This document shows positions 31,212-46,951 of a stretch of 50,540 bases of DNA, one piece after another. The DNA is taken from the NCBI GenBank assembly GCA_017403185.1, contig JAFQON010000022.1, positions 1-50,540 on the forward strand, read 5' to 3'. A model generated the notes under the pieces. That model searched no databases, was not told the DNA's origin, and was given only the letters and a program-made list of their open reading frames with translations. Each line of letters begins with the position of its first letter. The stretch's first letter is position 1. The stretch comes from Clostridia bacterium (GTDB taxonomy: Bacteria > Bacillota > Clostridia > Oscillospirales > Acutalibacteraceae). A program made the translations under genes and the position numbers.

Positions 31212-31412
31212 TTACTCACCTCTGTTCACTATCTGTATTTTCTTGACAGCTCTCAAACCTCTTTGCATGCCGCTGATATAGGATTCAAGCTCTTTTTTCT
31301 CAGCTTTAAGCTCCTGCACCTGCATACGAAGCTTGTTGTTTTCTTCAATAAGCTCCTCTTTGCAGTATGCAGGCAGATATTTATTAAAAAACCACTGTTT
31401 GATTTTACTCAT
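31212..31412 (-). CDS. Small coiled-coil phage protein
   Basis: A 66-residue protein (starts MSKIKQWFFNKYLPAYCKEE) with a coiled coil in its C-terminal half. The start overlaps the terminase stop (TAATG) and uses GAGAGG within the terminase end. Function is unknown; it lies between terminase and portal, so a packaging accessory role is possible. Confidence 0.6.
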   Translation of the reverse strand: MSKIKQWFFNKYLPAYCKEELIEENNKLRMQVQELKAEKKELESYISGMQRGLRAVKKIQIVNRGE

Positions 31413-32977
31413 TACTTTCCTCTCTTCTTCCATACAGGTGACATAGCATAGCGTGTCATATCTATAGCATGGTTATTGGCATCAGGATATCCGCTTATGA
31501 TATTACCTTCCTTATCCTTTTCGTACTCATATTCAAGAAATTCCTTGGCTGTTTCAGGGCAACGCTCAGGGTCAATCACAATCCTTCTGAGCGACTGCAG
31601 CCATTTCATAGAATAATCAACGCTGCCCGGGCCTTTTTCCGCACCCCGTGCCATAAGACCGTAAGACTTATAATCGCTTATACTCTTTTCTTCTGCACTG
31701 TCGCAAGTTATTCTCTCGTTCAAGGGTACACCTTTTTGATTAATAAGAATATCTGCTGTTTCACGGTTGCTCTTTTTATTACAACGATATTCATCAAAAA
31801 TATAAAGAGTAAGCCGTGCGGCATCGTAGTGCATTGCACCGTAATGAAACGGATCTGGAAACCATCCCCAGTCCACGCCTCTGTAAACACGGTCAAAGTT
31901 TGCAATCTGTTTATCTGTTATAGTTTCACAAACAACATTATCAAACACAGCTCCGCCCGTACCGTTGGCGATGCCTTCATATTCGTGCTCATAAGCCTGC
32001 GGATTGACGGCTTTGAGGAATTCGGCCTCATCAAGGAATACCTTTCCGAGCCATTCGGGCGGAACACCTTTATAAGTGGAGTGATGAACAAGTCGGCTGT
32101 CCTTCGGTACTTTGATATACTGATTAGCCCAGTTGTTTGCCGTTTTCGGCGGGTTAAATGATTTGAAGATATAAACCTTATCGCCGCCTCTTGCAGCAGA
32201 CTGCTCAATATTTCGCACACTTTCGGGACCAAGGAATTGGTCAAGCTCTTCAAACCATATGATTCCGATATATCCGAACGGCGGTTTAACCGATTTCAGC
32301 TTTTTCGGATCATCAGCTCCACGGAAATATATTTTCTGCCCGGTGGGTTTGTATGTAATTTCAAGCGACGACACTTTGAACTCAAATTCATCATCAAGAC
32401 CAAGTGTTTCTATCGCCCACTGCATCTGATTATAAACAGAATCCCTCAGTGTTTTGCCGACCTGACGAAGGACAAGCATGTGCATCTGAGGGTTATTTTT
32501 TAATATTTCAATTGCCTCAATCGAAATGAATGAGGATTTTGTTGAACCTCTGCCGCCCGGCAGAACATACTCAGTGTGATTATAATTAAGAATATCACGG
32601 CGCACGCTTGCGAAGCTGTCTGCAATAACAAGCGGGTCGATACGATATATTTCATTTTCCTTAATCGGAATTTCCTTAATGTGCTCTTCAAGCATACCGA
32701 GAGCTCTGAGAGCTCCGTAAGCATCTTTCAACTCTCTGCATTCACGGTATGTATCCACAATCTCGGTTACAATCATATCGGAGCTGAGGGCAAGGCTCTT
32801 TCTTTTTTCTTCCTGTAATTCACGCACACGGGCGAGGATGTCAGGTTTTGTAAGGTTTTCACATCCCATACTTCTTGCCGTTTTATCGGAATAACCTGCT
32901 CTTATTGCTGCTTGTGTAGCATTATAATCTTGAATATACTCCCGGCAGAATTGCTCTTGCCTTGCGTTAAGTGCCAA
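31412..32977 (-). CDS. Terminase: small-subunit DNA-binding domain fused to large subunit
   Basis: A 521-residue DNA packaging motor. Residues about 1-95 are a TerS-like (terminase_2) helix-turn-helix region (LNARQEQFCREYIQDYNATQ, AAIRAGYSDKTARSMGCENL). The TerL part follows with a Walker A-like loop PGGRGSTKSS (140-149), Walker B IIWFEE (239-244) and the RNase-H-like nuclease acids (GVDWGWFPD, TCDSAEEKS, DANNHAID). TerS and TerL are usually two genes; no separate TerS is found here, so the fusion appears to serve both roles. The ATPase would fill the procapsid through the adjacent portal. Confidence 0.88.
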   Translation of the reverse strand: MALNARQEQFCREYIQDYNATQAAIRAGYSDKTARSMGCENLTKPDILARVRELQEEKRKSLALSSDMIVTEIVDTYRECRELKDAYGALRALGMLEEHIKEIPIKENEIYRIDPLVIADSFASVRRDILNYNHTEYVLPGGRGSTKSSFISIEAIEILKNNPQMHMLVLRQVGKTLRDSVYNQMQWAIETLGLDDEFEFKVSSLEITYKPTGQKIYFRGADDPKKLKSVKPPFGYIGIIWFEELDQFLGPESVRNIEQSAARGGDKVYIFKSFNPPKTANNWANQYIKVPKDSRLVHHSTYKGVPPEWLGKVFLDEAEFLKAVNPQAYEHEYEGIANGTGGAVFDNVVCETITDKQIANFDRVYRGVDWGWFPDPFHYGAMHYDAARLTLYIFDEYRCNKKSNRETADILINQKGVPLNERITCDSAEEKSISDYKSYGLMARGAEKGPGSVDYSMKWLQSLRRIVIDPERCPETAKEFLEYEYEKDKEGNIISGYPDANNHAIDMTRYAMSPVWKKRGK

Positions 32978-33056
32978 CCGTCACCACCTCTCTTTATTTG
33001 CTGATTATCCCGCCCCTAACCCTGCCCACTCGCTATGGCAGGCTCAACTGGATAGA

Positions 33057-33512
33057 TTACATATATTTACCGCCGCGTTTTTTTGCTTTAGCGTTGCCAG
33101 TTTGAGCTTCACGCTTGTATTTTTCATATTCGCTTCGTGAATCAGTCATTTTTTTAATTGCTTTTTCTCTAAGTGCGATTTTTTCTTTTATTGCGGCTTT
33201 AGTTCCTGACACAGTATCTTTAGACATTGTTCCTTTGCCGTAAAAAGAATTAACATAAGCCGCTGTAACATCTACCTCTTTGATTGATTCTTTTAAGGAT
33301 TTAACTTCTGCTTGAGTATCTGCAATCAAACTCCGCCCTGTAACTGATTGATAAGCGTGCATTTCCCAACCGATTGTACTTGCCGAAGCCGTCAATGCAA
33401 ATGCGGCCGTAAATTCTCGTGCGTTACCCATTTCATCAGCATAAGCATTTTTGTAGTCAGCAGAATTTGGGTTGATTCCACTTAATCCACTTGAGCCACC
33501 TCTACCACCCAT
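33057..33512 (-). CDS. Hypothetical phage protein starting MGGRGGSSG
   Basis: A 151-residue protein with a Gly/Ser-rich start (MGGRGGSSGLSG) and a helical, lysine-rich end (AKAKKRGGKYM). The start overlaps the stop of the DUF4417 gene (TAATG), with GGAGGAATAAATA upstream. Proteins starting MGGRG occur near terminase or MuF genes in Firmicutes phages, but I know no function. Confidence 0.55.
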   Translation of the reverse strand: MGGRGGSSGLSGINPNSADYKNAYADEMGNAREFTAAFALTASASTIGWEMHAYQSVTGRSLIADTQAEVKSLKESIKEVDVTAAYVNSFYGKGTMSKDTVSGTKAAIKEKIALREKAIKKMTDSRSEYEKYKREAQTGNAKAKKRGGKYM

Positions 33513-34132
33513 TATTTATTCCTCCTGAATTTATCTTGATATGCTCCAACCCTAACAATGTCGCCTTCGCATTCTTCGGGTACTGAACCAAAAAATATAA
33601 TCTTTTTCGGGGTAAGTCGTTTTAGCATTTCCGTGTAACCTTTTATAAACAGCTCTTTTGTTTCGAGCGTTTTTTGTGTGCTTACAGAGGAAACTGCGAC
33701 AACTCCGCCAACAGGCTCGCCGTCAAAGCACCATTTAAAACTATCCTCGTCACTCCAGCTAATAGAGGGAATAACTTTTATCCCATGTTCTTGCCAATAA
33801 GCAGCAAGCCAATGTTTTCGATAGTGATTGTAAATTTGAATAATTTTCGGAAAATCCGTGTAAGTTGAAAAATCGGGAGATAAAACACAGTCAAATCGCT
33901 TGAGGATATCAATATAAGCATCCGGATTAGTCCAAAACCTTTCGAACTGATAATCATCAACAAAGAAGTGTAAGCCCTTATGTTCTGGAGATTTCTCTGT
34001 TTTTGCGTAATTAACACCAACAAAGCAATCGATATCGCAAGTTTCAGGTTGGATTTTGGGTATTGAATAACTGCCTACACCTTCAAATATTCTTTTGTTA
34101 AGATTTTCATACATTCTTGACTGTCGATACAT
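33512..34132 (-). CDS. DUF4417 family phage protein
   Basis: A 206-residue protein. The start is ATG 34132, with GAGGTG 9 nt upstream; an upstream in-frame extension would run into the tRNA. Sequence landmarks are CDIDCFVGVNYAKTEKSPEH, HFFVDDYQFERFWTNPDAYI and VLSPDFSTYTDFPKIIQIYN, with a C-terminal KKIIFFGSVPEECEGDIVRV, all typical of DUF4417. The biochemical role is unknown; the family is common near phage terminase genes. Confidence 0.7.
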   Translation of the reverse strand: MYRQSRMYENLNKRIFEGVGSYSIPKIQPETCDIDCFVGVNYAKTEKSPEHKGLHFFVDDYQFERFWTNPDAYIDILKRFDCVLSPDFSTYTDFPKIIQIYNHYRKHWLAAYWQEHGIKVIPSISWSDEDSFKWCFDGEPVGGVVAVSSVSTQKTLETKELFIKGYTEMLKRLTPKKIIFFGSVPEECEGDIVRVGAYQDKFRRNK

Positions 34133-34153
34133 TTTATTAACACCTCGTAAAAT

Positions 34154-34228
34154 TGGCAAAGGCGGCAGGATTTGAACCTGCGAATACGGGAGTCAAAGTC
34201 CCGTGCCTTACCGCTTGGCTACGCCTTC
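34154..34228 (-). tRNA. tRNA-Gln (anticodon TTG), prophage-encoded
   Basis: A complete cloverleaf reads on the minus strand: acceptor GAAGGCG with CGCCTTT (first pair G-U), D arm GCCAAGCGGTAAGGC, anticodon stem CGGGA/TCCCG with loop CTTTGAC (anticodon TTG), T arm GCAGG-TTCAAAT-CCTGC. The 3' CCA is encoded (34154-34156). It lies between a terminator and the DUF4417 gene, well inside the prophage and away from both att sites. Confidence 0.93.
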
Positions 34229-34229
34229 A

Positions 34230-34283
34230 TATAAAAACAGCAAAGCCCCCGAAGTGCGGAAAACTTCAAGGGCTTTGTGCTGT
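34230..34283 (-). terminator. Terminator after the late-regulator gene
   Basis: A long stem (ACAGC-AAAGCCC with GGGCTTT-GT-GCTGT, plus inner GAAGT/ACTTC, 34237-34283) has TTTTT on its minus-strand 3' side. It separates the early genes from the tRNA and late genes, so it is a candidate site for antitermination or late-promoter control. Confidence 0.75.
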
Positions 34284-34387
34284 ATATCCTAAAGGAGGAG
34301 ATTGAAAGAAGGGGTTTTACAATTTGTCTACACTATCATTTTAGCACGGAGTTATTGCATTGTAAATTGCACGTTTGTCGCATCATA

Positions 34388-34927
34388 TCAGGTCAGTCCG
34401 TCAATGCCGAATATCAGGTTCGAAAGCACCTGAATTGCTTTTTTGATATCTCTGTATACTGTGCTGCGGTCAATTGTTTCCTCTTCTGCAATCTCATCAA
34501 CGGATTTCGGTTCATCATCAATATAGAGAGCCTTTAAGATTCTGTAACGGCGTTTGTTTTCAGGTACACCGCTCTTTTCGCAGATAATCTCATAAACCTC
34601 AAGCATTGAATTTATGTGATTGACCATAATTGCCGTGCGTGCTGCCGAATTTCTGATTGATTTAACCGTTGTTTCAGCCTTTGAAAAATCACTGTCCGAC
34701 ATCATTGCAAGAATATCAAAAACGCTGTCCTCGCATTCTGCGGCAGAATATACGGATTTCTCAGCGTGTGCCTTGAACATTCTGTAATTGCAAATAAGCA
34801 GTTTTGTATTGTGCAGGCGTTTATCCTTGCCCTCGGAAACAAACTTCCTTTTGAGAGTTTCAAAACGCTTGTCAGCAGCCTTAACACCCTCTGCAACAGC
34901 AAGCTCAATGATTTCTTTTTCGTTCAT
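34388..34927 (-). CDS. ArpU/sigma-like phage transcriptional regulator
   Basis: A 179-residue protein. The C-terminal part (RILKALYIDDEPKSVDEIAE, EETIDRSTVYRDIKKAIQVL) is a sigma-70 region-4-like helix-turn-helix, as in ArpU/RinA-type late regulators placed just before the packaging genes in Gram-positive phages. The N-terminal ~110 residues are helical. It probably turns on the late operon beginning after 34.2 kb. It is the last early gene. Confidence 0.7.
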   Translation of the reverse strand: MNEKEIIELAVAEGVKAADKRFETLKRKFVSEGKDKRLHNTKLLICNYRMFKAHAEKSVYSAAECEDSVFDILAMMSDSDFSKAETTVKSIRNSAARTAIMVNHINSMLEVYEIICEKSGVPENKRRYRILKALYIDDEPKSVDEIAEEETIDRSTVYRDIKKAIQVLSNLIFGIDGLT

Positions 34928-35101
34928 TTATTCACTCTCCTTGATACCTGACATTGTTTCTCTTATGTACTTGTGAGGAACATCGCAGTTTATTGCGTTC
35001 ATCATAAGCTCCGCTTCTGTTGCCTGCTTTACAAGAGCATAAAAATCAGAATACTTGATATTAAGCCTTTCTTCAGGGCCTATAGCATCTATAAATCCCA
35101 T
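34928..35101 (-). CDS. Small hypothetical phage protein
   Basis: A 57-residue protein starting MGFIDAIGPEERLNIKYSDF. AGGAGGGGAATGATC precedes ATG 35101. Its stop is adjacent to the start of the regulator gene. No family recognised. Confidence 0.6.
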   Translation of the reverse strand: MGFIDAIGPEERLNIKYSDFYALVKQATEAELMMNAINCDVPHKYIRETMSGIKESE

Positions 35102-35103
35102 GA

Positions 35104-35265
35104 TCATTCCCCTCCTTTGTCGGATGATTTCTCGGAAACATCGATAAACATCGTAAGCATGGGTATAATGTACCACCAAAGCAACGATGCTTTGTCAAAA
35201 TGTATTGCCGCCAAAGTTACGCAGATAAAAGCAGCAATTATTGTTATGTAGTGAAAAACAATCAT
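35104..35265 (-). CDS. Small membrane protein
   Basis: A 53-residue protein with two hydrophobic stretches (FHYITIIAAFICVTLAAIHF and LLWWYIIPMLTMFI) and a short charged tail. GGAG-TAA precedes the ATG; ATG 35268 is an alternative start. It lies between ssb and the next small gene, with a ribosome binding site for the latter in its 3' end. Function unknown. Confidence 0.6.
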   Translation of the reverse strand: MIVFHYITIIAAFICVTLAAIHFDKASLLWWYIIPMLTMFIDVSEKSSDKGGE

Positions 35266-35268
35266 CAT

Positions 35269-35649
35269 TTACTCCATCACCTCCGGAATATCCTTGTATT
35301 CAGGTATGTTTTCACATCCGGGCGCACTTGCCCCTTTATCTCCGCAAAAACTTACCGCATCAGCAATAAGCTCCAAAGCCTTGCGTGAAAAACCGTTTTT
35401 ATCTTTGTAGCTTCGTGACTGCAGTCTGCCCTGAACCGCTATCATTGTTCCCTTCCTGAAATTCTTGCATATAAACTCTGCATCGTGCCGCCAAGCTACA
35501 ACATCAATGAAATCAGCCTGCCGTTCTCCGTTTTGCGTAAATCTACGGTCAACAGCAACGGTGAATGAAGTTGTTTTCGTTCCTGACGGCGTAACTCTAA
35601 GCTCCGGGTCAGCAGTTAAGCGGCCCATTATAACTCCGATATTTACCAT
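35269..35649 (-). CDS. ssb: Single-stranded DNA-binding protein
   Basis: A 126-residue OB-fold SSB. Family hallmarks: MVNIGVIMGRLTADPELRVT, TSFTVAVDRRF, FIDVVAWRHDAEFICKNFRK and IAVQGRLQSRSYKDKNG. The C-terminus is acidic but short (EYKDIPEVME) and lacks the usual DDDIPF partner-docking tip. The start lies inside the end of the HUH protein gene, with AAAGGAATACGAG upstream, so the two are coupled, consistent with a shared role in phage DNA replication. Confidence 0.9.
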   Translation of the reverse strand: MVNIGVIMGRLTADPELRVTPSGTKTTSFTVAVDRRFTQNGERQADFIDVVAWRHDAEFICKNFRKGTMIAVQGRLQSRSYKDKNGFSRKALELIADAVSFCGDKGASAPGCENIPEYKDIPEVME

Positions 35650-36379
35650 CTCGTATTCCTTTCTTTTCAGGTATTTTTATCATGGTGTATTTTTGATACG
35701 GATATCCGAAAGCATCAACATCCATTTCGATGCTGTCTTTCGGTATGTAATAGCCCTTTATAGGTTTCGGATAGTTTGTCCAACTGTCAGCTGATACAAT
35801 TTCCTTCTCAATTTCAGGCTTTTTCAAGTTTTTGCTTGCATTCCATCTTTTTGCACTTACGGGATTTCCTTTGAATGTTTTCCGGGTTTCCTTAACAAAA
35901 TAAACTGCAAGGGCACTGTAATCTCCTTTATCATCAAGCGGCGTAAAGAACACTCTGCCGTACGGCCACAATTTTTGAATGATTTTGGGATTGATTTCAT
36001 TGACTACCAAATGATGATGAATTCTCTTGTTTTCGTATTCCGTTGCGTTTACATATTTAAGCTCCAAACCATTCTCACGGTAAGCCTTTCTTAAGTTTCT
36101 GAGAAATTTGCGGATATTTTCTCTTGCTTCTTCAGGTGTCGGGTAATAATCATCCTTGTATGTAAGCCTTGCATGAAGGTCACCTTCGCCAAAGTTGGTA
36201 TTGATAAGCCATGTCAATTTCTCGACGGCGTTTTTTTCGTTGATTTCCTGCACCTTTTTAGGAGAAAGGTTTGTTTTTTTCTCTCTTGCAATATTCTCTT
36301 TCTTCCCATGCCGAGCAGAATAATATTTCTTTATCTCTACTGTATCGCCCGCTCTGACTGTTCTCTTAATGTACGGCAT
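35609..36379 (-). CDS. HUH-type rolling-circle replication initiator-like protein
   Basis: A 256-residue protein. The start at 36379 has AGAGGTAAAT upstream. The metal-binding HUH motif is seen as IHHHLVVN (His 121-123 region), and a candidate catalytic tyrosine lies in ALAVYFVKE (about Y160), the spacing expected for REP/G2P-like endonucleases. These enzymes nick one strand at a hairpin origin and stay covalently attached. A strong stem-loop (36407-36470) lies 28 bp upstream of the start, and ssb overlaps the 3' end. In a dsDNA siphovirus genome this is less usual than a DnaA/helicase-type system. Confidence 0.7.
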   Translation of the reverse strand: MPYIKRTVRAGDTVEIKKYYSARHGKKENIAREKKTNLSPKKVQEINEKNAVEKLTWLINTNFGEGDLHARLTYKDDYYPTPEEARENIRKFLRNLRKAYRENGLELKYVNATEYENKRIHHHLVVNEINPKIIQKLWPYGRVFFTPLDDKGDYSALAVYFVKETRKTFKGNPVSAKRWNASKNLKKPEIEKEIVSADSWTNYPKPIKGYYIPKDSIEMDVDAFGYPYQKYTMIKIPEKKGIRDGKYRSYNGPLNC

Positions 36380-36392
36380 ATTTACCTCTTTC

Positions 36393-36470
36393 GTGTCCGT
36401 AAGATAATTGCTATACCAAGGCGAGCAAGTGCCCGACCGGACACTTCTTTGCGAGGCTTGATATAGCAAT
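36393..36470. other. Large stem-loop upstream of the HUH gene, candidate replication origin
   Basis: A 14-bp stem (ATTGCTATACCAAG, 36407-36420, with CTTGATATAGCAAT, 36457-36470, one wobble pair) encloses a smaller hairpin AAGTG/CACTT (36427-36431 and 36442-36446) with loop CCCGACCGGA. GTGTCCG just outside (about 36394-36400) can alternatively pair with CGGACAC in the loop region. There is no T-run, so it is not a terminator. Being next to a nickase gene it is a good double-strand-origin candidate. Confidence 0.5.
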
Positions 36471-36547
36471 TTCAAGGTGCATATATTAATGTATATAATA
36501 TAAATATCGTTGATTATAAAATTCGGAATCGGAATAATATTTTGTGT

Positions 36548-36691
36548 TTAAATGTCGAAGAATTCATTTTTACAATAATCGTTAAAACGGTCACACCATA
36601 AGCAGCACTTACGGCAATGCTTTCCTGTTGAAAAAAACAATTTAATTCTTAGCTTTGCGTTGTTAAATTTCTTTGCTATGTTTCGATACAT
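36548..36691 (-). CDS. Small cysteine-rich phage protein
   Basis: A 47-residue basic protein (starts MYRNIAKKFNNAKLR) with a metal-binding-like cluster HCRKCCLWCDRFNDYC. GGAGGGTTTTAA precedes the ATG, inside the end of the truncated gene upstream. Probably a small zinc protein; function unknown. Confidence 0.6.
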   Translation of the reverse strand: MYRNIAKKFNNAKLRIKLFFSTGKHCRKCCLWCDRFNDYCKNEFFDI

Positions 36692-36822
36692 TTAAAACCC
36701 TCCTTGCTTTTTTCATCTGTTCTTCCATCTCGGGAATTGATGTTTTGCCGTTGTGCTCTTTCCAAAGCTCCAACAATACAGCTGTGCACGGGGTGCACTG
36801 ATTTCGGCTGATGCCTACTCTG
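36663..36822 (-). pseudogene. 5'-truncated gene remnant directly after the DGR template
   Basis: An open frame of about 52 codons with no ATG/GTG start. It begins after an in-frame TGA about 17 bp past the template repeat. It encodes a plausible protein end (NQCTPCTAVLLELWKEHNGK, then TSIPEMEEQMKKARR) and overlaps the next gene by 29 bp in the manner of a real operon gene. The missing 5' part, at the exact place where a DGR normally has its reverse transcriptase, suggests a deletion junction near 36,820-36,838. Confidence 0.55.
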
Positions 36823-36838
36823 TCTCACATTCCATCAG

Positions 36839-36914
36839 AACGGGCGAACACCGCCGCTGTTGTTGCAATTGTTGTTGTTGAGTATTCCATTGTTGTTGAC
36901 GCAGCGGACACAAT
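36839..36914 (-). repeat. DGR template repeat (TR)
   Basis: A 76-bp gap-free match to the variable repeats at 37360-37435 and 37896-37971. Read on the minus strand it is packed with AAC/AAT codons (would encode VNNNGILNNNNCNNSGG). Versus VR2 there are 11 differences and all 11 are at adenines of this copy. Versus VR1, 9 of 11 differences are at adenines. The first 21 plus-strand bases (GC-rich, end of the repeat on the coding strand) are identical in all three copies, as expected for the homing-initiation region. It lies about 28 bp after the avd-like stop codon. Confidence 0.88.
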
Positions 36915-36942
36915 AAAAAGGCTACAGCACACAGCCTGTGCG

Positions 36943-37314
36943 TTATCTTTCTTTATCCCTTTTCCTCCACGCTATTGTCATTCGCTTCACATCCGACACA
37001 AGCCCCGACCAATACTCGGCTCTGTCATAAGAAAGTATTCCGAGACGAACAGAAAGCTCAATATAAAACTGCAATTCTTCGCAATATGTAATTGCTTCGG
37101 TCTGAAGCTCCTGCCGCCTGCCTAAATCTTTAAGCAGCGTTCGGTTTGCCTCAAGCAATTTATTATGGATATGAAGGCTTTTACAAAGCATTTCGTTAAC
37201 TATGTTTAATCTGTACTTTTTTGGGAACACCTTATCATTCGATGTTACCCTGTATGTGTGTTCTGCAAGGTCTTTTGCTTTTACAATTACCTGCAGTCCT
37301 TTTCCTTCGCTCAT
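36943..37314 (-). CDS. avd: DGR accessory variability determinant (Avd-like four-helix protein)
   Basis: A 123-residue helical, basic protein. It resembles the four-helix-bundle Avd/bAvd proteins encoded beside DGR reverse transcriptases: KAKDLAEHTYRVTSNDKVFP, KKYRLNIVNEMLCKSLHIHN, ELQTEAITYCEELQFYIELS and YDRAEYWSGLVSDVKRMTIA. Avd binds the RT and template RNA and is needed for mutagenic retrohoming. It is placed between the second target gene and the TR, the usual order (targets-avd-TR-RT). GAGGATTAATA before the ATG overlaps the target gene's last codons. No RT follows. Confidence 0.85.
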   Translation of the reverse strand: MSEGKGLQVIVKAKDLAEHTYRVTSNDKVFPKKYRLNIVNEMLCKSLHIHNKLLEANRTLLKDLGRRQELQTEAITYCEELQFYIELSVRLGILSYDRAEYWSGLVSDVKRMTIAWRKRDKER

Positions 37315-37316
37315 TA

Positions 37317-37844
37317 TTAATCCTCATCAGATACAGAGATTGAAGATTTTAAGATATAAAACGGGCGAACACCGCCGCTGATGTTGCAAAGGTTGATGTA
37401 GAGCACTCCATTGAGGCCGACGCAGCGGACACAATCCGTCCATGTTTTACTTGACAATGCTGTAGCAGTCCACCACCATCTGCCGGGATTATATTTATCA
37501 AGGATTTCAATAAACTCTCTGAACTGAGTTGTTGTCAAAAGGCTGATTTTATCTGTTACTGTGCCGTAATCCTTGCGCCCATCATCGGTTATAAGGTCAA
37601 CCGTATGCTCAACAATATTCTCTGCACCGACTTCAGTTGCAAGCACCTTAAGGAACTTTGTATTCAGATCATTTCGGATATCACTTGCAACATAATTTGC
37701 TGTATCATTGTCAAACCTTGCAGTTTTCCAAAAATCTTTAAGAAGGCACATTGTTGTGCCGCTTCCTTCATCATGGGCAAGAATTATATGCTCAAGCTTT
37801 CCTGTTTTGAATGTTGTGCCTATGGCTTTTTCGGATAATTTCAT
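37317..37844 (-). CDS. DGR target protein 2, C-type-lectin-like variable domain (DUF6273-like)
   Basis: A 175-residue protein. The start at 37844 follows GGAGGTAACAACA. The body resembles target 1 (NDTANYVASDIRNDLNTKFL, HTVDLITDDGRKDYGTVTDK, then RWWWTATAL). Residues 138-162 are encoded by the variable repeat: CVRCVGLNGVLYINL followed by CNISGGVRPF. A fixed YILKSSISVSDED tail ends the protein. WWWTATA...GGVRPF is the frame typical of C-type-lectin/FGE-fold DGR targets, where variable residues form an exposed binding site. Variable codons derive from AAC/AAT in the template (to GGC, CTC, TAC, ATC, CTT). There is no signal peptide. Confidence 0.82.
   Translation of the reverse strand: MKLSEKAIGTTFKTGKLEHIILAHDEGSGTTMCLLKDFWKTARFDNDTANYVASDIRNDLNTKFLKVLATEVGAENIVEHTVDLITDDGRKDYGTVTDKISLLTTTQFREFIEILDKYNPGRWWWTATALSSKTWTDCVRCVGLNGVLYINLCNISGGVRPFYILKSSISVSDED
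37360..37435 (-). repeat. DGR variable repeat 2 (VR2)
   Basis: 76 bp, no gaps relative to the template at 36839-36914. It carries 11 substitutions, all at template adenines (minus strand). It encodes the last variable segment of target 2. Confidence 0.88.
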
Positions 37845-37858
37845 TGTTGTTACCTCCA

Positions 37859-38485
37859 TTATTCAGATACAAAGATTTCAGAATTCAAGATACAAAACGG
37901 GCGAACACCGCCGCTGTTGCAGCAATAGCAGTTGTCGAGTATTCCCCCGTTGTTGACGCCGCGGACACAACTGGTTTTCGCCTCATCAGACCATGCTGTT
38001 GCAGTCCACCACCAACGCTCCATATTTTCGCCGATAACAGAACGGTATTTGCGATACATCTCGGTTGTGATGAGGCTGATTTTGTCAGTGGCTGTGCCGT
38101 GGGCTTTGAGGCCATCATCGGTGAGCAAGTCAACTGTATGAAGAAATATATTATCCTTGCCGACAATCGTTTCAAGCGCTCTGAGAAATTCACCATTGAG
38201 ATACTTGCGGATGCTGCTGTTTGCATAGTTGCAGGTGTCTTCATCAAACTTCATTGACTTCTCAAGCAGATTCTTGAAAAGAACCGCTGTGCCGTTTTCA
38301 AAATTCTCAAGAATTATAAGCTCCGTTTCGCTAACCTTGACTACCATACCGGGCTCATATTCCTTCAGGCGTTTTTTCTGCTGAAGATGTTCCTTGAGGT
38401 CTTCGGGGTTGATGTGAAGAATTATTTCATCTCCTACATTCTCAACCTCAGCTTTGATTGTCGTTTTGGTTTTCAGGAAACACAT
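37859..38485 (-). CDS. DGR target protein 1, C-type-lectin-like variable domain (DUF6273-like)
   Basis: A 208-residue paralogue of target 2. AAAGGAGGAAGAAACA sets the start at 38485. An extra N-terminal region (about 1-60, KEHLQQKKRLKEYEPG) precedes the shared core: DEDTCNYANSSIRKYLNGEF, HTVDLLTDDGLKAHGTATDK and RWWWTATAW. Residues 173-197 come from the variable repeat: CVRGVNNGGILDNCY, then CCNSGGVRPF. The stop overlaps the ribosome binding site of target 2, so they are one operon. As a phage early-region protein without export signal, its ligand is probably intracellular or virion-associated; this is unknown. Confidence 0.82.
   Translation of the reverse strand: MCFLKTKTTIKAEVENVGDEIILHINPEDLKEHLQQKKRLKEYEPGMVVKVSETELIILENFENGTAVLFKNLLEKSMKFDEDTCNYANSSIRKYLNGEFLRALETIVGKDNIFLHTVDLLTDDGLKAHGTATDKISLITTEMYRKYRSVIGENMERWWWTATAWSDEAKTSCVRGVNNGGILDNCYCCNSGGVRPFCILNSEIFVSE
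37896..37971 (-). repeat. DGR variable repeat 1 (VR1)
   Basis: 76 bp aligned without gaps to the template at 36839-36914. It has 11 differences, 9 at template adenines and 2 at template thymines (minus strand; plus positions about 37946 and 37960). The homing-end 21 bases are identical to the other copies. Confidence 0.85.
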
Positions 38486-38571
38486 TGTTTCTTCCTCCTT
38501 TGAATTTAAAAATTTTGTAACTTCGCTCACTTTTTGTCATTTATTTATAAACGACAAAGTGAGTGTTTTAT

Positions 38572-38787
38572 ATGAAAACAAAAATAAATGTTATTGAGGC
38601 GACGACCTATAGGCAACCCCTTGCTGTTACCGAAATCCTTTTGTTACTCAACGGTGACGCATTTTCTATCTGCCCTCGATGTAAGAATACTCTTGAGTGG
38701 GAATATCAGCGTTACTGCGACCGCTGCGGTCAGTGCCTCGATTGGGATAACTTTGATGATGCGGTTATTGTGGAGTTTCAGGGTTAA
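38572..38787 (+). CDS. Small double zinc-ribbon protein, lone rightward gene
   Basis: A 71-residue protein (starts MKTKINVIEATTYRQPLAVT; GTG 38563 is an alternative start). It has two CxxC knuckles: CPRCKNTLEWE and YCDRCGQCLDW. It is the only plus-strand gene in the middle of the leftward early block, divergent from the DGR targets and convergent with the radical SAM gene, which it overlaps by 4 bp. Such rubredoxin/zinc-ribbon-like proteins often bind nucleic acid or partner proteins; its role is unknown. Confidence 0.6.
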   Translation: MKTKINVIEATTYRQPLAVTEILLLLNGDAFSICPRCKNTLEWEYQRYCDRCGQCLDWDNFDDAVIVEFQG

Positions 38788-39626
38788 ACTGAAAAATCTT
38801 TGTAACTTGTTCCTTTTTCCATATGAGCTCTTGTTGCAGCCGGGCGTTGCCACATTCTTGCCCAAGCATTCCAATCCGCAGAATACTCGGTCTTTTTATC
38901 CGAGAAATCTCTGTAAAGCTGAATAAACGGCATTGCACCCGCTTCATAAACGGCCTGCGCTCTTGCTTCGTCTTTGTCTCGGTCTTTACCGTAAGAAAGA
39001 ACATAGCATTTGATTTTCTCACGGTTAAATCCCGCTTTTGTAAGCTTTTCGCAAGCCTTTTTAAATTCGGGCAGCCTTGCATCGGTATCGCAAGCAAGCC
39101 ATAATTCCGATATTCTCAAATCTGATATGCCGTTGATAAAATGGTCGTCAATCAAATCAGCTTCAAGTCCACCTTTGAAACAAATTGCTTTTTGGTGTTT
39201 CAGCATTTCAAACACTTTATCTTTGTGCCGTCGGCTCGCCTGCAGAAAATTGTTATCCTGTATTATATTGCCTTCGCAAATCGGCAGCTCTTTCAATCTG
39301 CCTTCAAGCTTTGGGACACAGCACCACGGGCAGTTATTGTTGCAACCTCTTGTGGTGAAAATGATGTTTTTCTTGATATACATACCCTGTGTGAAATCTT
39401 CGGCACAGCTGCCGAATGCAGGACCACCAAGTTTAACGGGCTTGTCCGTTCTTCCTTCCCATTGAAAAGCAAGCTCTTCGCAAAGCTGCTTATCCCAAGT
39501 GAAAGTGCAGGACACATGAATTTCCTTGTGCTCAGGAATCAGTAAAGGCGGCATACCGATAAAAGACATATTGTCATCGGGTGTATACGATGTTTTGCGA
39601 GGAAACACACGAATTATACCGTTCAT
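38784..39626 (-). CDS. Phage radical-SAM-like protein
   Basis: A 280-residue protein. The cluster motif is C-NNN-C-PW-C (FTTRGCNNNCPWCC), followed by VPKLEGRLKELP. Later strands (ACDTDARLPEFKKACEKLTK, KCYVLSYGKDRDKDEARAQA) fit a radical-SAM barrel. An N-terminal ~80-residue part contains SFIGMPPLLIPEHKEIHVSC. The substrate is unknown; small radical-SAM proteins of this kind occur in early regions of Firmicutes phages. The upstream gene ends with GGAGGGTAA at its start codon, giving coupling. Confidence 0.7.
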   Translation of the reverse strand: MNGIIRVFPRKTSYTPDDNMSFIGMPPLLIPEHKEIHVSCTFTWDKQLCEELAFQWEGRTDKPVKLGGPAFGSCAEDFTQGMYIKKNIIFTTRGCNNNCPWCCVPKLEGRLKELPICEGNIIQDNNFLQASRRHKDKVFEMLKHQKAICFKGGLEADLIDDHFINGISDLRISELWLACDTDARLPEFKKACEKLTKAGFNREKIKCYVLSYGKDRDKDEARAQAVYEAGAMPFIQLYRDFSDKKTEYSADWNAWARMWQRPAATRAHMEKGTSYKDFSV

Positions 39627-39627
39627 T

Positions 39628-39795
39628 TTACCCTCCTGATTTCATAACAAGCGTATCTCTCAATTCGTCAAGAGCATTGTATTCATCCGTGTGAAGAAAG
39701 TCTCTATTGTTGTCATGGCTGAGAACACTTTCGATAGCTGTTATAAGCTCCTGTGCCGCTTCGTATTCAAGATTTATTGTTACTGTGTTTTTCAT
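39628..39795 (-). CDS. Small hypothetical phage protein
   Basis: A 55-residue acidic helical protein (starts MKNTVTINLEYEAAQELITA). GGAGGAACT lies before the ATG, and its end supplies the ribosome binding site for the radical SAM gene. No family recognised. Confidence 0.6.
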   Translation of the reverse strand: MKNTVTINLEYEAAQELITAIESVLSHDNNRDFLHTDEYNALDELRDTLVMKSGG

Positions 39796-39803
39796 AGTTC
39801 CTC

Positions 39804-40619
39804 CTAAAAAAGCTTTATCTGTTCATTCGGTGGCTCATAGTTCATCCATATAAACTCTTTTACAAGTTCTGATGATGTTGTTCTTGTTTCAGTGGAATAC
39901 TTATTCCAAGTAGAAAGCACATTGTTGTAAAGGTCCGAATCATATCCAGACAAAACAATTTTTGCATTGCTCATTGATATAAGCTTCAACATTTGTATTT
40001 GCTGCTCATCGTTCATTTCATATTTGTATAAACGACCGCTTTTTCTCGCACTCCGAACATACGGAGGATCAAGATACATTAGCACTTCCGAGGAATTGTA
40101 TTTCTCGATAAGACTTAAGGCATCTTTGCGTTCTATCTGTACAAGATGTGTCGTATCACCCAAAAGTCTTTTAGAAGCAATGTCAATTGTGTTTGTTATG
40201 CTTGCCCATTTACAAGCTGTTCCCCCGATAGTTTTCTGCTTGTGGTTTCTCCAACCACATTTTCCATCCATTTTTGCGCCTATTGCTTGCGTGGTTTTGA
40301 TTATGTACCTTCGAGCTTTTTCTATCGGTTCATTACAAGGCAAAAAAGATTTATCATATTCTTCTCTGCTGTATGGAGTAAGTGATAAAACTCGTTTAAG
40401 TTCTTCCGGGTGTTCACGTAAAACATAAAACAAATTAACTATATCTCCATCAAGGTCGTTTACCGTTTCAACCGCTCCCGGAAGTTTGTTAAAGAATACT
40501 GCCCCCGAGCCCACAAAAGGTTCGACATAAACCATTTTTTCGTAATCTTCGGGAAAATGAGAAATAATCCACGATGCAAGCCGCCATTTTGAACCGGGGT
40601 ATCTGATAATTGCGTTAAT
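39804..40619 (-). CDS. D12-class DNA adenine-N6 methyltransferase with apparent ATT start
   Basis: A 271-residue methyltransferase if read from ATT 40619. It modifies adenine in DNA using S-adenosylmethionine. The SAM motif is split between IIRYPGSKWRLA (residues about 3-14) and VEPFVGSGAVFFNK; the catalytic motif is LDPPYVRS. The first ATG in frame (40535) would omit the PGSK part of the SAM site. Upstream of the AAC codon that should follow Met there is only ATT (with GGAGGG 6 nt before it) and then an in-frame TAA. Translation from the rare ATT, or a mutated ATG, are the options. Phage Dam enzymes protect against restriction or mark replication. Confidence 0.8.
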   Translation of the reverse strand: MNAIIRYPGSKWRLASWIISHFPEDYEKMVYVEPFVGSGAVFFNKLPGAVETVNDLDGDIVNLFYVLREHPEELKRVLSLTPYSREEYDKSFLPCNEPIEKARRYIIKTTQAIGAKMDGKCGWRNHKQKTIGGTACKWASITNTIDIASKRLLGDTTHLVQIERKDALSLIEKYNSSEVLMYLDPPYVRSARKSGRLYKYEMNDEQQIQMLKLISMSNAKIVLSGYDSDLYNNVLSTWNKYSTETRTTSSELVKEFIWMNYEPPNEQIKLF

Positions 40620-40734
40620 TCCAATCCCTCCTTATCCCCGCCGCTCTGTGTGTAAATGAAATCAAAAGAGCTGTATTAAATTGTGTCAGAACAGCGGGGG
40701 TAATTGTTAAAAAATTATTTGATCCTTTGAGAAA

Positions 40735-41031
40735 TCAGGCGTTCCTTTCGCCCTTGCTGCAGTAATCATCAGGGTTCACATACTCGGTAAAATAACCTCG
40801 TCTGTCGCACTTATAAACATCGGCATCTTCGTTATATTTGCAGAAAATGCAATCTTTGCAACGAACAACCTCAACTACATCGGCGGCGGGAAGCTTATCA
40901 ATTATGTGAAGAATGTGATTGTGCTCCTGCGTATGAATAAGACTTGCTTCAACGGTTCTGTGGTTGTCTTTTAAACGAGAACCCTTGTAAGCGTTTATTG
41001 CGTCTAAACGCTTTATAAAATCATCATCCAT
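40735..41031 (-). CDS. Small zinc-binding phage protein
   Basis: A 98-residue protein (starts MDDDFIKRLDAINAYKGSRL). The C-terminal part carries a four-cysteine pattern (VRCKDCIFCKY ... YKCDRRG ... DDYCSKGE). AAGGAAGGTG precedes the ATG. The motif is common in small early phage proteins with no known job. The ~115 bp between it and the methyltransferase gene holds no recognisable feature beyond that gene's ribosome binding site. Confidence 0.65.
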   Translation of the reverse strand: MDDDFIKRLDAINAYKGSRLKDNHRTVEASLIHTQEHNHILHIIDKLPAADVVEVVRCKDCIFCKYNEDADVYKCDRRGYFTEYVNPDDYCSKGERNA

Positions 41032-41329
41032 TGTCAGCACCTTCCTTTGTTTCTGCAACCTCAAGGCAGTCGATACAGTTCCTTGCTGTGTCAAGTGCAT
41101 CAAGAGCCTCCTGAATTGCCCTTTTGGAAAACATCCGTTTTTCTTCTGATTTATTAAAAACAAATTCCATATGTTCATCCGCTTCAATTACTTCTGCGGT
41201 CACAAAATTATTTTCATTTGCATTGAATTCAGTAACCCTCTTGTTGAGCTCTTCATCTGACCATTCCAACGCCTTGAACACAGTTGTCAATTCGCCTGAC
41301 TTTTTGTTTCTGTAAAAAATCAGTTTCAT
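41024..41329 (-). CDS. Hypothetical phage protein
   Basis: A 101-residue acidic protein (starts MKLIFYRNKKSGELTTVFKA). GGAGGTGTTGAA sets the start at 41329. It overlaps both neighbours by a few bases. No family recognised; the composition suggests a soluble alpha/beta protein. Confidence 0.6.
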   Translation of the reverse strand: MKLIFYRNKKSGELTTVFKALEWSDEELNKRVTEFNANENNFVTAEVIEADEHMEFVFNKSEEKRMFSKRAIQEALDALDTARNCIDCLEVAETKEGADNG

Positions 41330-41913
41330 TTCAACACCTCCACATAGCACCAACTCTGTGGCGGTCTGTCAAGCCGTTTCAGATGCTGACCGAAACAATT
41401 TGTGTTCAATTTTGAAGCTGACACAAATTCATTTATTTTTTTCGGCTTGTCATAGATTACAAGGTCGGATATGTGCCAACCGTAAAAAGTGTCAATTCCT
41501 ATACCGATATACTTTTTTAAATCTTCATACCCAACACAACATTTTCTGAAAAAGTTTGTGTTTATATATGGAATATCAAGCTCATTTGTCCACTCATAAA
41601 AGCCTGTTATATCTCCATGTTCGTCGCGGTCAATGCTTGCAATCCATTCAAAGCAATCATCATCAACAAATTCACTTTCGTATTCTTCAATACAATTACA
41701 CACAAACTCGCCTATGACTTTCTTTCTGCCTTTGCCCTTCAAATAAACATTGAAATTCTCGTTGCCTACCCTGTGATTTCCACTGCTTTCGTATATGTAA
41801 CACTTAAACGGTGTCGGAAGCTTGGGCTTTGTCTTCCTGACCTCAACGGTCTTTTTGCCCGATGCAATAAGCTCACACCATTTCGGCTGAACGCTGAGTA
41901 ATACTGATTTCAT
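41326..41913 (-). CDS. ASCH-domain phage protein
   Basis: A 195-residue protein. The N-terminus (VLLSVQPKWCELIASGKKTV, then EVRKTKPKL) and the strand KVIGEFVCNCIEEY match the ASCH/PUA-like fold, which binds RNA or modified nucleotides. Proteins of this type are frequent in Firmicutes phage early regions. The target is unknown. It overlaps its neighbours on both sides. Confidence 0.7.
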   Translation of the reverse strand: MKSVLLSVQPKWCELIASGKKTVEVRKTKPKLPTPFKCYIYESSGNHRVGNENFNVYLKGKGRKKVIGEFVCNCIEEYESEFVDDDCFEWIASIDRDEHGDITGFYEWTNELDIPYINTNFFRKCCVGYEDLKKYIGIGIDTFYGWHISDLVIYDKPKKINEFVSASKLNTNCFGQHLKRLDRPPQSWCYVEVLK

Positions 41914-42191
41914 TCCGTATCACCTGCCTTTTTGCCCACCACACCTGTTTGCATATTTCTGATTTCGCGTTCGTCATATCCTACAAGGTGCGACATAGTG
42001 ACGGCTCTGTTTATAGATACGCATATAGGTTTCAACTGCATCTGCAAATTAAAGGTTGCTGTTTCTTTGCACTTTTCACAAAGAGGAATTTCAATGTGTA
42101 TATTGCAATGGTAGAAATAATAATATTCGTTTGTTTTTCTCGATTGGCAACAAGCACATAAAACCTTTTCACTTGATGTTAAAAAGTTCAT
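41910..42191 (-). CDS. Small cysteine-rich phage protein
   Basis: A 93-residue protein with a zinc-ribbon-like set of cysteines: VLCACCQSRKTN and PLCEKCKETA. 4-bp overlaps on both sides place it in the early operon. No specific function can be given. Confidence 0.6.
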   Translation of the reverse strand: MNFLTSSEKVLCACCQSRKTNEYYYFYHCNIHIEIPLCEKCKETATFNLQMQLKPICVSINRAVTMSHLVGYDEREIRNMQTGVVGKKAGDTE

Positions 42192-42598
42192 TCCGCATCA
42201 CCCGCCATTTCTTTTACAAGGTTGTCGATACAGCGTTCAAAAGACAAACTCATACATCGGTTTTTGTATTCGCCTTTCAACCTCTTGGCAAATTCTTTGA
42301 TTGCTTCGGCTTTTGCTTGTTCAATGTATTCAAGCAATTCTTCAAGTGTTGGTGTTTCTTTTTCTTTTGCTATACTTAACTTTTGCAGCTCACACCAAAA
42401 CGCATTTATTGTCGTTTCGATTTTCTTAAACCTCTCAATCTCTGCCTTTTGGCGGTTGATAAGGTCAAGTGTCGGTTTGTGCAAAGCAAGAAAACAATCC
42501 CCTGCATATTCATATAATGGGCAAACAGCAGGGCAATCAAGGCTGTTAGTACAACACTCCAAAACCTTTATAATCTTGTTATCTGTAAATTTCATCAC
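42188..42598 (-). CDS. Hypothetical phage protein, cysteine-rich start and coiled coil
   Basis: A 136-residue protein. The N-terminus has several cysteines (LECCTNSLDCPAVCPLYEYA), followed by a coiled-coil segment (LINRQKAEIERFKKIETTI) and a helical C-terminal half. This layout (Cys cluster, then INRQKAEIE) recurs in small early phage proteins; function unknown. Confidence 0.65.
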   Translation of the reverse strand: MMKFTDNKIIKVLECCTNSLDCPAVCPLYEYAGDCFLALHKPTLDLINRQKAEIERFKKIETTINAFWCELQKLSIAKEKETPTLEELLEYIEQAKAEAIKEFAKRLKGEYKNRCMSLSFERCIDNLVKEMAGDAE

Positions 42599-43014
42599 GC
42601 AACCTCCGATTTAAGTGCTTCGGCACGATTTTTGAGGATGTGTGCATAACTGTTCATTTGCTGTCCTTCAAACAGAGATATAATTTCAAAGGCATCGGCA
42701 AGAAGTGTTTCGGCATCTTCCCCTCTCTTAGCACGCTTTATAAGCTCCGAGAGCAATGCTTCAGCTGATCTGATGTTATTCTGGTAAGAAGTATAAGCTC
42801 CGAGATTAAGCAATCTGCCTTTGCGCAGTTCATTAAACCTTGAAAGAGCTGCCGCTTTCTGTGCTGTGGCTTCGTTTTTTGTTATAAGCCTTTTGCCGTA
42901 AGCCTCACCGATTCCCAAAAGCTCATAATATGCCATTTTCTCCTCAGGTGCAGCAAATTCAGGCAGTCTTTTTCTTTCAACTGTCATTTTGTAAATTTCG
43001 TTAAAGCTAAGCAT
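42595..43014 (-). CDS. Hypothetical phage protein
   Basis: A 139-residue helical protein starting MLSFNEIYKMTVERKRLPEF. The start at 43014 has GAGGAGGTATACG upstream. The longer open frame upstream crosses a strongly structured leader and is not believed. A replication-related role would suit its place, but no motif supports it. Confidence 0.6.
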   Translation of the reverse strand: MLSFNEIYKMTVERKRLPEFAAPEEKMAYYELLGIGEAYGKRLITKNEATAQKAAALSRFNELRKGRLLNLGAYTSYQNNIRSAEALLSELIKRAKRGEDAETLLADAFEIISLFEGQQMNSYAHILKNRAEALKSEVA

Positions 43015-43039
43015 CGTATACCTCCTCTTCTTCTCATCC

Positions 43040-43138
43040 GTTATGCACACGAAGGATAAATAATTGTTGCTCAAGAAACCATGGGGAAAGGTTTGAATTC
43101 CGTGTGCATAACGCATGGGGACGACGCATTCGCCGTCC
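43040..43138 (-). other. Structured leader RNA candidate
   Basis: The 215-bp gap 43,015-43,229 contains a perfect 12-bp inverted repeat GTTATGCACACG / CGTGTGCATAAC (43040-43051 and 43101-43112) enclosing about 49 nt. Next to it is a smaller GGACG/CGTCC hairpin (about 43119-43138). It lies 26 bp upstream of the 43014 start, whose ribosome binding site is beyond the stem. It may be a regulatory leader, processing site or protein-binding palindrome. Confidence 0.45.
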
Positions 43139-43229
43139 TCAGCGGATTGATTTGTGTTTATTGATTTTGGAGAGTGTCGACGGCGGTTAACCGTAATCAA
43201 TTTTTTTCATATTCTGCATCTCCTTTGTT

Positions 43230-43550
43230 TTATATCCGAAAGCTTTTACAATAAGCTTTTCGTTCGTTACTATGCCAATCTGTCATAACCTTCACGCTTA
43301 TATTGTTACATTGTTCTGACAGCGAAGGCTTATTAAGCCACTTCATAAACCGCTTGGATTTTATAAGCCTTGCGGCTATTGCTTTTCCTATTCTCTTGAA
43401 CAGTTTTGAAATCCACTTGCGGAACCGTATTCTGTACGGAATTTCAAATTTAACGATTACAGGCTCAAATACAAAGCCTATAATAAGCAGTACAACCGCC
43501 ACAAAAAGTAAAAGTGTTTTTATAATTTCAATAACAATTTCAGGAAACAT
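43230..43550 (-). CDS. Single-pass membrane phage protein
   Basis: A 106-residue protein starting MFPEIVIEIIKTLLLFVAVV. One strong N-terminal membrane segment is followed by a highly basic cytoplasmic part (RIRFRKWISKLFKRIGKAIA). GAAGGGAG lies 11 nt upstream; ATG 43586 is an alternative start. The gene overlaps the upstream one by 11 bp. Function unknown. Confidence 0.55.
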   Translation of the reverse strand: MFPEIVIEIIKTLLLFVAVVLLIIGFVFEPVIVKFEIPYRIRFRKWISKLFKRIGKAIAARLIKSKRFMKWLNKPSLSEQCNNISVKVMTDWHSNERKAYCKSFRI

Positions 43551-44043
43551 TTTCTTTTTTCTCCCTTCTTTTATAAACAACCTCATCTGTAAGTGATTTC
43601 TGCTCAAATTTATCAAGGTTATAGCTTGCTTTCTGTCCTTCGAGCTTGTCTGCAAGTGTTGTTAAATCATCCTCCCAACGGTGACCGTTAAGCCATGTTG
43701 AAGCGTGAGGAATAAGAGAAGCTGTTTTCCATTGCTCGGTTCTCTTGTGCTGAGCAAGAGCCATCAGCAAGCTGTCAAGCATCTTTCGGTCTTTGCAAAC
43801 CTTTTTGAAGGCCTTGAAAGAATTGACTTTATTAACCTTCCGGGGATATTCCTTCCAAAACTCCTCAAACATTGCTTCTATCTCGCTTTGTTCCTTCTGA
43901 GGGTCTATAATTTCAATTTTTATCGGCTTTTCGATATCCTTCCACTCTTCAACGAAATACGCCATAGCTTCCTTAATGCCGATAACCTCATCTTCGTCCT
44001 CGGTCTTCAGAACAACCTCAAATCTGATTTTGACTTTTGACAT
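43540..44043 (-). CDS. Phage replisome organizer-like protein (C-terminal domain type)
   Basis: A 167-residue protein. The segment FEEFWKEYPRKVNKVNSFKA and the later LIPHASTWLNGHRWEDDL are the hallmark C-terminal block of many phage replication O/DnaD-like proteins. The usual N-terminal DNA-binding winged helix is absent; about 60 acidic residues stand in its place. It may be a helper in origin or helicase loading beside the HUH protein and SSB. Confidence 0.65.
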   Translation of the reverse strand: MSKVKIRFEVVLKTEDEDEVIGIKEAMAYFVEEWKDIEKPIKIEIIDPQKEQSEIEAMFEEFWKEYPRKVNKVNSFKAFKKVCKDRKMLDSLLMALAQHKRTEQWKTASLIPHASTWLNGHRWEDDLTTLADKLEGQKASYNLDKFEQKSLTDEVVYKRREKKENVS

Positions 44044-44045
44044 CT

Positions 44046-44234
44046 TTATAACCTCTCAAACTGTTCAATATGGCTGCTGTAATAATCGCTCATTCTGCAA
44101 CCTGCGTTTTTGCCCATTTGCTCTATATAGCGTGCCTTTTGCTCTTCGGATAAGCTCTCCCACGCATAAGTCTCGCCCGTATAATTGTCTTTCATAAAGA
44201 TTCTGAACGGTATTGATGTTGATTTTTTTGCCAA
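44046..44234 (-). CDS. Small hypothetical phage protein
   Basis: A 62-residue protein (starts MAKKSTSIPFRIFMKDNYTG) with a helix LSEEQKARYIEQMGKNAG. It ends 2 bp before the next gene. No family recognised. Confidence 0.55.
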   Translation of the reverse strand: MAKKSTSIPFRIFMKDNYTGETYAWESLSEEQKARYIEQMGKNAGCRMSDYYSSHIEQFERL

Positions 44235-44283
44235 AAGAGCTCACCCCTTTGCTTAATTGTATTCACTCACCGTTTGTCCTGTT

Positions 44284-44637
44284 TCATGAAACCCTGAGAT
44301 TATTGATATCGTTCATAACCTTTAAAGCTTCTTTTTCCGTAAGCCCTACAACCGTATCGTCAGATTTTCCGATTATAATTGCCATGCCGAATATATCATC
44401 TTCTGCACTCGGCAGCGTTGCGCAGTATGTGGCTCTTTCATTAACCTGAAGAGAGCTTTTCTTTCGTGCATGAACAGAGAACATAGTCAGTTGTCTTTCA
44501 AAGCAGTCAACAGGTGTTTCTTTTATCATCGTGCCTACCTTTTCATGGATAATTGCCGCAGCCTTTTCCATTGAATTGAAGCCCTTAAGGTATGCCTCTT
44601 TGTTAACAGGCACTACCACCAAATATCTGTTTGCCAT
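44284..44637 (-). CDS. Hypothetical phage protein
   Basis: A 117-residue alpha/beta protein (starts MANRYLVVVPVNKEAYLKGF). GGAGAAAAATTT lies before the ATG. No family recognised. It belongs to the first few early genes transcribed from the leftward promoter near 45.16 kb. Confidence 0.55.
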   Translation of the reverse strand: MANRYLVVVPVNKEAYLKGFNSMEKAAAIIHEKVGTMIKETPVDCFERQLTMFSVHARKKSSLQVNERATYCATLPSAEDDIFGMAIIIGKSDDTVVGLTEKEALKVMNDINNLRVS

Positions 44638-44653
44638 AAATTTTTCTCCTTGT

Positions 44654-44857
44654 TTATCCGTATTTCTTTATAAGCTCCGCTTTTTTCTTCATGCAAGCAG
44701 CCCTCTTCGGAAATACAAAATTACTTTTACTTTCGCACTCACGCAAATGCTTGCATATGTTACAGGCACCGCTCATTACCGCCCACTGTATTGCTAAGCC
44801 CTCGACGGTTTTATCTGCCGAATAAGGCTTATCAAAAACAACATTTGTATTACTCAT
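44654..44857 (-). CDS. Small cysteine-containing phage protein
   Basis: A 67-residue protein with four cysteines (SGACNICKHLRECESK ... RAACMKKK) that could hold a metal. Second gene of the early operon. Function unknown. Confidence 0.55.
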   Translation of the reverse strand: MSNTNVVFDKPYSADKTVEGLAIQWAVMSGACNICKHLRECESKSNFVFPKRAACMKKKAELIKKYG

Positions 44858-44875
44858 GATGCAACCTCTGTATCG

Positions 44876-45043: not shown

Positions 45044-45068
45044 TACTTCGCCTCCCTTCATAAAATAC

Positions 45069-46938: not shown

Positions 46939-46951
46939 AGGGTGTAACTAT

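Follow-up and report, generated by a model that had tools for sequence, protein, structure and literature searches.

A prophage diversity-generating retroelement cassette from a Clostridia bacterium that retains template, targets and avd without a reverse transcriptase

The cassette and its parts

The stretch of DNA analysed here (the window; 50,540 nucleotides) is the entire contig JAFQON010000022.1 (our G000:C14) of assembly GCA_017403185.1, a metagenome-assembled genome (MAG) of a Clostridia bacterium of the Acutalibacteraceae, 2.40 Mb in 50 contigs, 80.3% complete and with 3.95% contamination. It carries a cassette of a diversity-generating retroelement (DGR), read on the minus strand, with two target genes (T1 and T2) that each hold a variable repeat (VR1 and VR2), an avd gene and a template repeat (TR). 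A preliminary description of the sequence had reported that the cassette has two targets, an Avd and a template but lacks a reverse transcriptase (RT), and this holds; the order targets-avd-TR is also that of the relatives, which add an RT. We suggest that the DGR was probably stopped by loss of the RT gene and of half of the spacer (Sp) that lies between TR and RT in those relatives. The comparison relied above all on L003, L004 and L005, close IMG/VR contigs found by means of the window Avd, and on a fourth contig, L207. The features are as follows.

37859..38485, minus strand: target gene T2, 208 amino acids from the ATG at 38485, DUF6273, VR2 at its 3' end
37896..37971, minus strand: VR2, 11 differences from TR, 9 at TR adenines
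37317..37859, minus strand: target gene T1, 180 amino acids, DUF6273, VR1 at its 3' end
37360..37435, minus strand: VR1, 11 differences from TR, all at TR adenines
36943..37314, minus strand: avd, 123 amino acids, PHROG 3206 'Avd protein of DGR' (E = 7.9e-20)
36839..36914, minus strand: TR, homing end 36839-36859, identical in L003, L004, L005 and L207
36792..36838, minus strand: 5' half of the TR-RT spacer, retained
36683..36791, minus strand: replacement segment (the scar), about 109 bp in place of the Sp 3' half and the RT gene
36548..36691, minus strand: small Cys-rich open reading frame (ORF), 47 amino acids, its counterpart directly behind the RT in L003 and L005

TR, VR1 and VR2 are 76 bases long and align without gaps, and a recount of their differences gave the numbers first reported. 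TR holds 23 adenines in its 76 bases; the hypergeometric probability of finding all 11 VR1 differences at adenines is 2.4e-7, and that of finding 9 of the 11 in VR2 is 2.1e-4, the remaining two VR2 differences being T to G. The 21 bases that close the repeat at its homing end are exactly shared by the three copies, as had been stated. The figure of 22 adenines in 55 template positions holds when counted from the coding-strand 5' end; the 55 bases at the homing end include 19. Among 200,000 pairs of 76-base segments taken at random from the window, the best was identical at 39 of 76 positions, against 65 of 76 for the cassette repeats. The locus has TR-VR pairing of the DGR kind, in which the copies diverge at TR adenines.

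Both targets pass the Pfam gathering cut-off for DUF6273 (PF19789; 23.5 bits), T2 with 47.4 bits and T1 with 27.4, and both match PHROG 9958 (7.7e-42 and 1.4e-34, respectively). No credible PDB match came out of a sequence-profile search with the targets. When their fold was compared with C-type-lectin domains the scores were middling, two rows excepted, and a putative C-type-lectin fold of the targets is consistent with the model; neither Mtd nor any other DGR target was among the 50 fold matches listed, which is uninformative either way. The gene earlier called Avd-like matches the PHROG family of DGR Avd proteins and lies between a target and TR, though it falls short of the curated cut-offs of NCBIfam (DivGenRetAVD, 31.6 versus 80 bits) and Pfam (bAvd, 24 versus 40 bits). 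As a family, Avd proteins are four-helix and pentameric; a sequence-profile search with the window Avd found nothing credible in the PDB. The window Avd is 97% identical to that of L003-L005, and its gene has a ratio of nonsynonymous to synonymous divergence (Ka/Ks) of about 0.04 (window versus L003: Ks 0.41, Ka 0.016).

Close relatives

The DNA of L003-L005 is 87.6% identical to that of the window over 36792-38745, and all 76 bases of TR are the same in the window and in L003, L004, L005 and L207, the four closest IMG/VR contigs found. The window VR1 differs from those of L003, L004 and L005 at 12, 11 and 11 positions, each of them a TR adenine. L004 and L005 share one VR1 sequence, from which that of L003 differs at seven positions, again all TR adenines. 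VR2 is the same in these three contigs and differs from the window's at 13 positions, 11 of which are TR adenines; the other two are the T to G changes peculiar to the window. L207, which shares this TR and has an RT, begins too near TR to cover the VRs. The preliminary description had proposed comparing strains for adenine-specific change in VR with a constant TR, and this is the pattern seen, for TR in the window and four contigs and for VR1 in three of them. Because TR is identical and VR1 varies solely at TR adenines, the lineage was diversified by adenine-specific retrohoming, and past adenine-specific VR change in the window's lineage is plain from these alignments.

The missing reverse transcriptase and the replaced segment

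An RT follows TR in L003, L005 and L207, and likewise in L004, where it is truncated by the contig end. In L003 and L005, TR is followed by a spacer of about 86 bases, a 352-residue RT gene and the small Cys-rich ORF. In the window, homology to the relatives ends at 36792, within the spacer, and restarts at 36682, close to where the small ORF begins; this ORF is 84-90% identical to its L003 and L005 counterparts over 41-43 residues. Collinearity with L005, at 88% identity, continues to 35282; L003 diverges past the small ORF. Judged from these aligned sites, the RT was evidently lost together with the Sp 3' half in the window lineage.

The earlier statement that no RT is present extends to the rest of the assembly, in which the RVT_1 profile had no match (its control was positive in 3 of 14 known genomes), nor did the L005 RT protein, a query that strongly matches two further genomes of the genus. 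The DGR-type RT that a functional autonomous DGR has was thus not found in this 80.3% complete assembly, and the site comparison shows it to be absent from the locus.

No relative of the scar was found by DNA and peptide searches of phages and plasmids or by pattern searches of IMG/VR. Among 398 genomes of the family, matches to it came from its own genome and seven others, and those seven matched 26-35 bases only. A 51-residue frame at 36666-36818, whose end resembles an RT C-terminus by eye, was compared with the RT C-termini of 112 relatives as a candidate RT remnant; 108 of 200 shuffled peptides reached its best score and it scored 1.6 bits against the profile, which rules the candidate out.

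The spacer

A first model of the spacer (R1) was built from an alignment (A4) of 34 relatives, leaving out L003, L004, L005, L131 (a second cassette without an RT, described below) and the window. R1 gave 87.7 bits for L003, 83.7 for both L004 and L005, 88.8 for L131 and 38.9 for the window; L009 and L011 scored 83.6 and 100.8 bits, but both lie on contigs included in the model. The first spacer set comprised 36 of 75 unique spacers, chosen for their CAAAAGA and CC-T-TC type blocks, and 34 of the 36 went into A4 and R1. Because the spacers were selected for these 3'-half blocks, the invariance of the blocks in A4 is by construction. The A4 fold is a three-pair hairpin only, and R1 is mostly a sequence model.

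The analysis was repeated on 77 unselected unique spacers with leave-one-out scoring, the tested spacer and its near copies being omitted each time. The 5' half of the window spacer scored 41.9 bits, at least as high as 60 of 75 relatives, and the 3' half -0.6 bits, lower than all 75; the 3' half of L131 scored 40.9. CAAAAGA occurs in 38 of the 76 non-window spacers and CAAA[AG] in 72 of them; the motif is absent from the window. An intact TR-RT spacer, as expected of a functional autonomous DGR, is not present there. For the DGR of the Bordetella phage, published work describes a spacer that folds, recruits RT-Avd and supplies the priming adenine for cDNA synthesis (PMC12875486). By that analogy the template RNA of the window would probably be dead even with an RT supplied.

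The second spacer base is A in the window (36835) and in L131, and G in most relatives; A also occurs there in 3 of the 34 A4 sequences (L139, L140 and L152), and the agreement may be chance.

How common the loss is

A search with an Avd profile gave 128 relatives in IMG/VR; the best 80 of these, together with 44 from GTDB genomes, make up 124 avd loci, not de-duplicated and including L003-L005 again. An RT was counted as downstream when its frame started -200 to +1500 bases from the avd end, and this was so at 121 of the 124 loci. Two of the others lie on contigs that end 156 and 268 bases past avd (L070 and L130, respectively), and L131 is the only RT-less locus with room for one, with 4.8 kb downstream. 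A second survey, by spacer pattern, gave 45 IMG/VR loci, 43 of them with an RT and two ending 45 and 78 bases past the pattern start; the pattern it used fails to match L131.

The L131 cassette (IMGVR_UViG_3300018878_002217, 3816-6800) has no RT in its entire 16.9 kb record. It retains TR and the full spacer, has VRs without a non-adenine mismatch in the 67 bases counted, and has a broken reading frame in one of its two targets. Beyond the cassette lie unrelated sequence, a repressor-like frame and an integrase-like frame.

TR-VR pairs were gathered from the same relatives by keeping rows with a GVRP-like anchored target frame, at most 15 non-adenine mismatches and at least 8 adenines in TR. 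Removing 13 rows without an adenine mismatch (those inspected were TR against itself) from the 176 kept left 163 pairs from 107 loci, 127 of them unique. Over 67 bases each, these pairs have 1358 adenine and 128 non-adenine mismatches. Decay of VR2 after RT loss was considered as a source of its two non-adenine changes and set aside, as 25 of the 123 other unique pairs have at least two.

Why the cassette appears to have stopped

We consider it likely that this DGR was stopped, probably recently, by loss of the RT and half of Sp, and that the cassette is now frozen. With the molecular steps taken from known DGRs, an ancestral cassette in the order T2-T1-avd-TR-Sp-RT would have worked through an RT-Avd complex that copied TR RNA starting at Sp, randomised adenines, and gave a cDNA that overwrote VR1 and VR2. 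A replacement in the window lineage, perhaps a single event, would then have removed the RT gene and the Sp 3' half. Without an RT and with a cut spacer, the cassette's own TR would hardly be copied and the targets would keep their last VR alleles. The preliminary description had left the choice between a frozen cassette and one served in trans; for its own template we favour the first, because the RT was lost with the Sp 3' half, and for the VRs service by a complete relative is conceivable, as weighed below.

The age of the loss was judged from a 154-base block running from just past the avd end into the spacer, in which the window differs by one base from L003 and L207 and by five from L004 and L005. 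Assigning half of Ks to the window branch, about 31 changes would be expected in an unconstrained block of this length and one was seen, so that at most about 15% of the window branch was unconstrained (95% Poisson bound), if a clock holds and the block has not recently recombined. Either loss of the RT is recent or selection still acts on TR. Intact parts are what a frozen state predicts if the loss is recent.

Several observations weigh against a frozen cassette. The lowest Sp 3' half among the relatives (-0.2 bits) belongs to L183, which has an RT, and whose spacer carries an insertion that displaces the halves; the need for the Sp 3' half in this family is presumed by analogy with the Bordetella phage. 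The two non-adenine changes in VR2 are not unusual and were given no weight as a sign of decay. The assembly is incomplete, so an RT could lie elsewhere in the missing fifth of the genome and work on the window's TR. We regard this as very improbable, since none was found in the bin, the RT adjoins avd-TR in 121 of the 124 relatives, where seen, and the spacer expected to engage an RT is cut.

The scar junction was found in no other IMG/VR contig, which raises the possibility of an assembly fault, that is, that an RT is present in the sampled phage and the MAG contig, assembled from short reads, is in error over 36683-36791. A MAG of 50 contigs with some contamination, and the finding of only one other RT-less locus among 124, agree with such a fault. 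However, both flanks keep the collinear order of L005, the 109 bp bridge is not seen elsewhere and is unlike a repeat join, and the bin has no loose RT contig, and we think a fault improbable.

Finally, there is no decay in TR, avd or the targets, which fits a recent loss but would also fit continued use. The cassette could be non-autonomous, with VR1 and VR2 rewritten by a co-resident complete phage that has the same TR while the window's own TR stays idle. Complete relatives do have that TR, VR1 has no non-adenine mismatch, and the L005 RT has its strong matches in 2 of 45 genomes of the genus searched (G020 and G036) and weak matches in nine further ones. In Bordetella phage, avd, TR and brt are reported to function when supplied in trans (PMC3240598), and trans activity has been inferred in Thiohalocapsa (PMC10907252); the clean VRs of L131, also RT-less, point the same way. 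Against this, neither an RT nor a second cassette is present in the window's own bin, and recent loss also predicts intact VRs, so we hold service in trans to be rather unlikely. A broader form of the idea, which we think unlikely, is that RT-less phage cassettes such as those of the window and L131 are non-autonomous elements that have shed the RT and diversify only beside a complete cassette in the same cell; if true, mutation of a phage surface-type protein would be a service shared among co-resident phages. Weighing these points together, we still take a stopped cassette to be the likely state of this DGR.

The prophage and its neighbourhood

The first 12.9 kb or so of the window holds genes of host type, and the cassette lies in a prophage with PHROG matches to endolysin, tail, tape measure, head, portal, terminase, repressor and integrase families.

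13807..49517: prophage holding the cassette, approximate limits, from endolysin to serine integrase, by PHROG matches
35609..36382, minus strand: replication initiation gene, PHROG 3584 (7.4e-66), Pfam REP_ORF2-G2P (51.3 bits)

The replication initiation gene is the next one downstream of the cassette and small ORF, and is collinear with L005. On the other side, a radical-SAM-like phage gene (38784-39626, minus strand) has a Ks of 1.4 against L003 and L005, compared with about 0.4 for neighbours in the avd region, and sits at a different place in those contigs, which marks the phage as a mosaic. Elsewhere in the prophage are a tRNA-Gln (ttg) at 34154-34228 (minus strand) and, adjoining the repressor, a protein with DUF4041 and T5orf172 domains (45616-46938, plus strand). 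A host-side gene at 162-2855 (minus strand) matches TIR_2, Sel1 and TPR. A frame adjoining the integrase (49613-50539, minus strand) is open at the contig end; we take it to resemble the C-terminal part of a second serine recombinase, but a Pfam search of 49613-50380 had no match at 0.001.

Comparison with known systems

The large DGR survey of Roux et al. 2021 (PMC8144416) is described as having begun from the RT gene, an approach that RT-less cassettes escape; a 2014 survey allowed TR-VR pairs without an RT (PMC4159848). Searches based on Avd or the spacer can find RT-less cassettes, and close relatives reveal what was lost. In such loci the RT is naturally 'off' while relatives sharing the TR have it 'on', and through such pairs the rate of decay of VR, TR and avd without an RT, as well as service in trans, become testable.

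DUF6273 DGR targets have been described in Faecalibacterium prophages (PMC11792537), and the cassette resembles those DGRs in lying in a prophage, in having the VR at the DUF6273 C-terminus and, as in some of them, in having two targets. They are described with an RT, whereas the window has none and its spacer is cut. With the Bordetella phage BPP-1 DGR, as published accounts present it (PMC12875486, PMC3240598), it shares Avd, TR, adenine-specific VR change and a TR-RT spacer; BPP-1 has the RT and the full spacer, in contrast to the two DUF6273 targets, missing RT and missing Sp 3' half of the window.

Our literature search, limited in terms and coverage, found no report of RT and spacer loss in a phage cassette. 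Incomplete DGRs have nonetheless been reported, among them a nanoarchaeal cassette without an RT ORF (PMC4372165) and Thiohalocapsa loci with parts disrupted or absent that may be served in trans (PMC10907252). According to these accounts, they too have DGR parts and no usable RT at the locus; the window differs in being a Clostridia phage cassette whose close RT-bearing relatives delimit the loss, half of the spacer included. In Treponema denticola, target genes are reported in strains without RT and TR (PMC4891356), VR-bearing targets that are likewise read as DGR remnants, whereas the window retains TR and avd. RT-less DGRs are already known, and the cassette in the window is a well-resolved variant of them.
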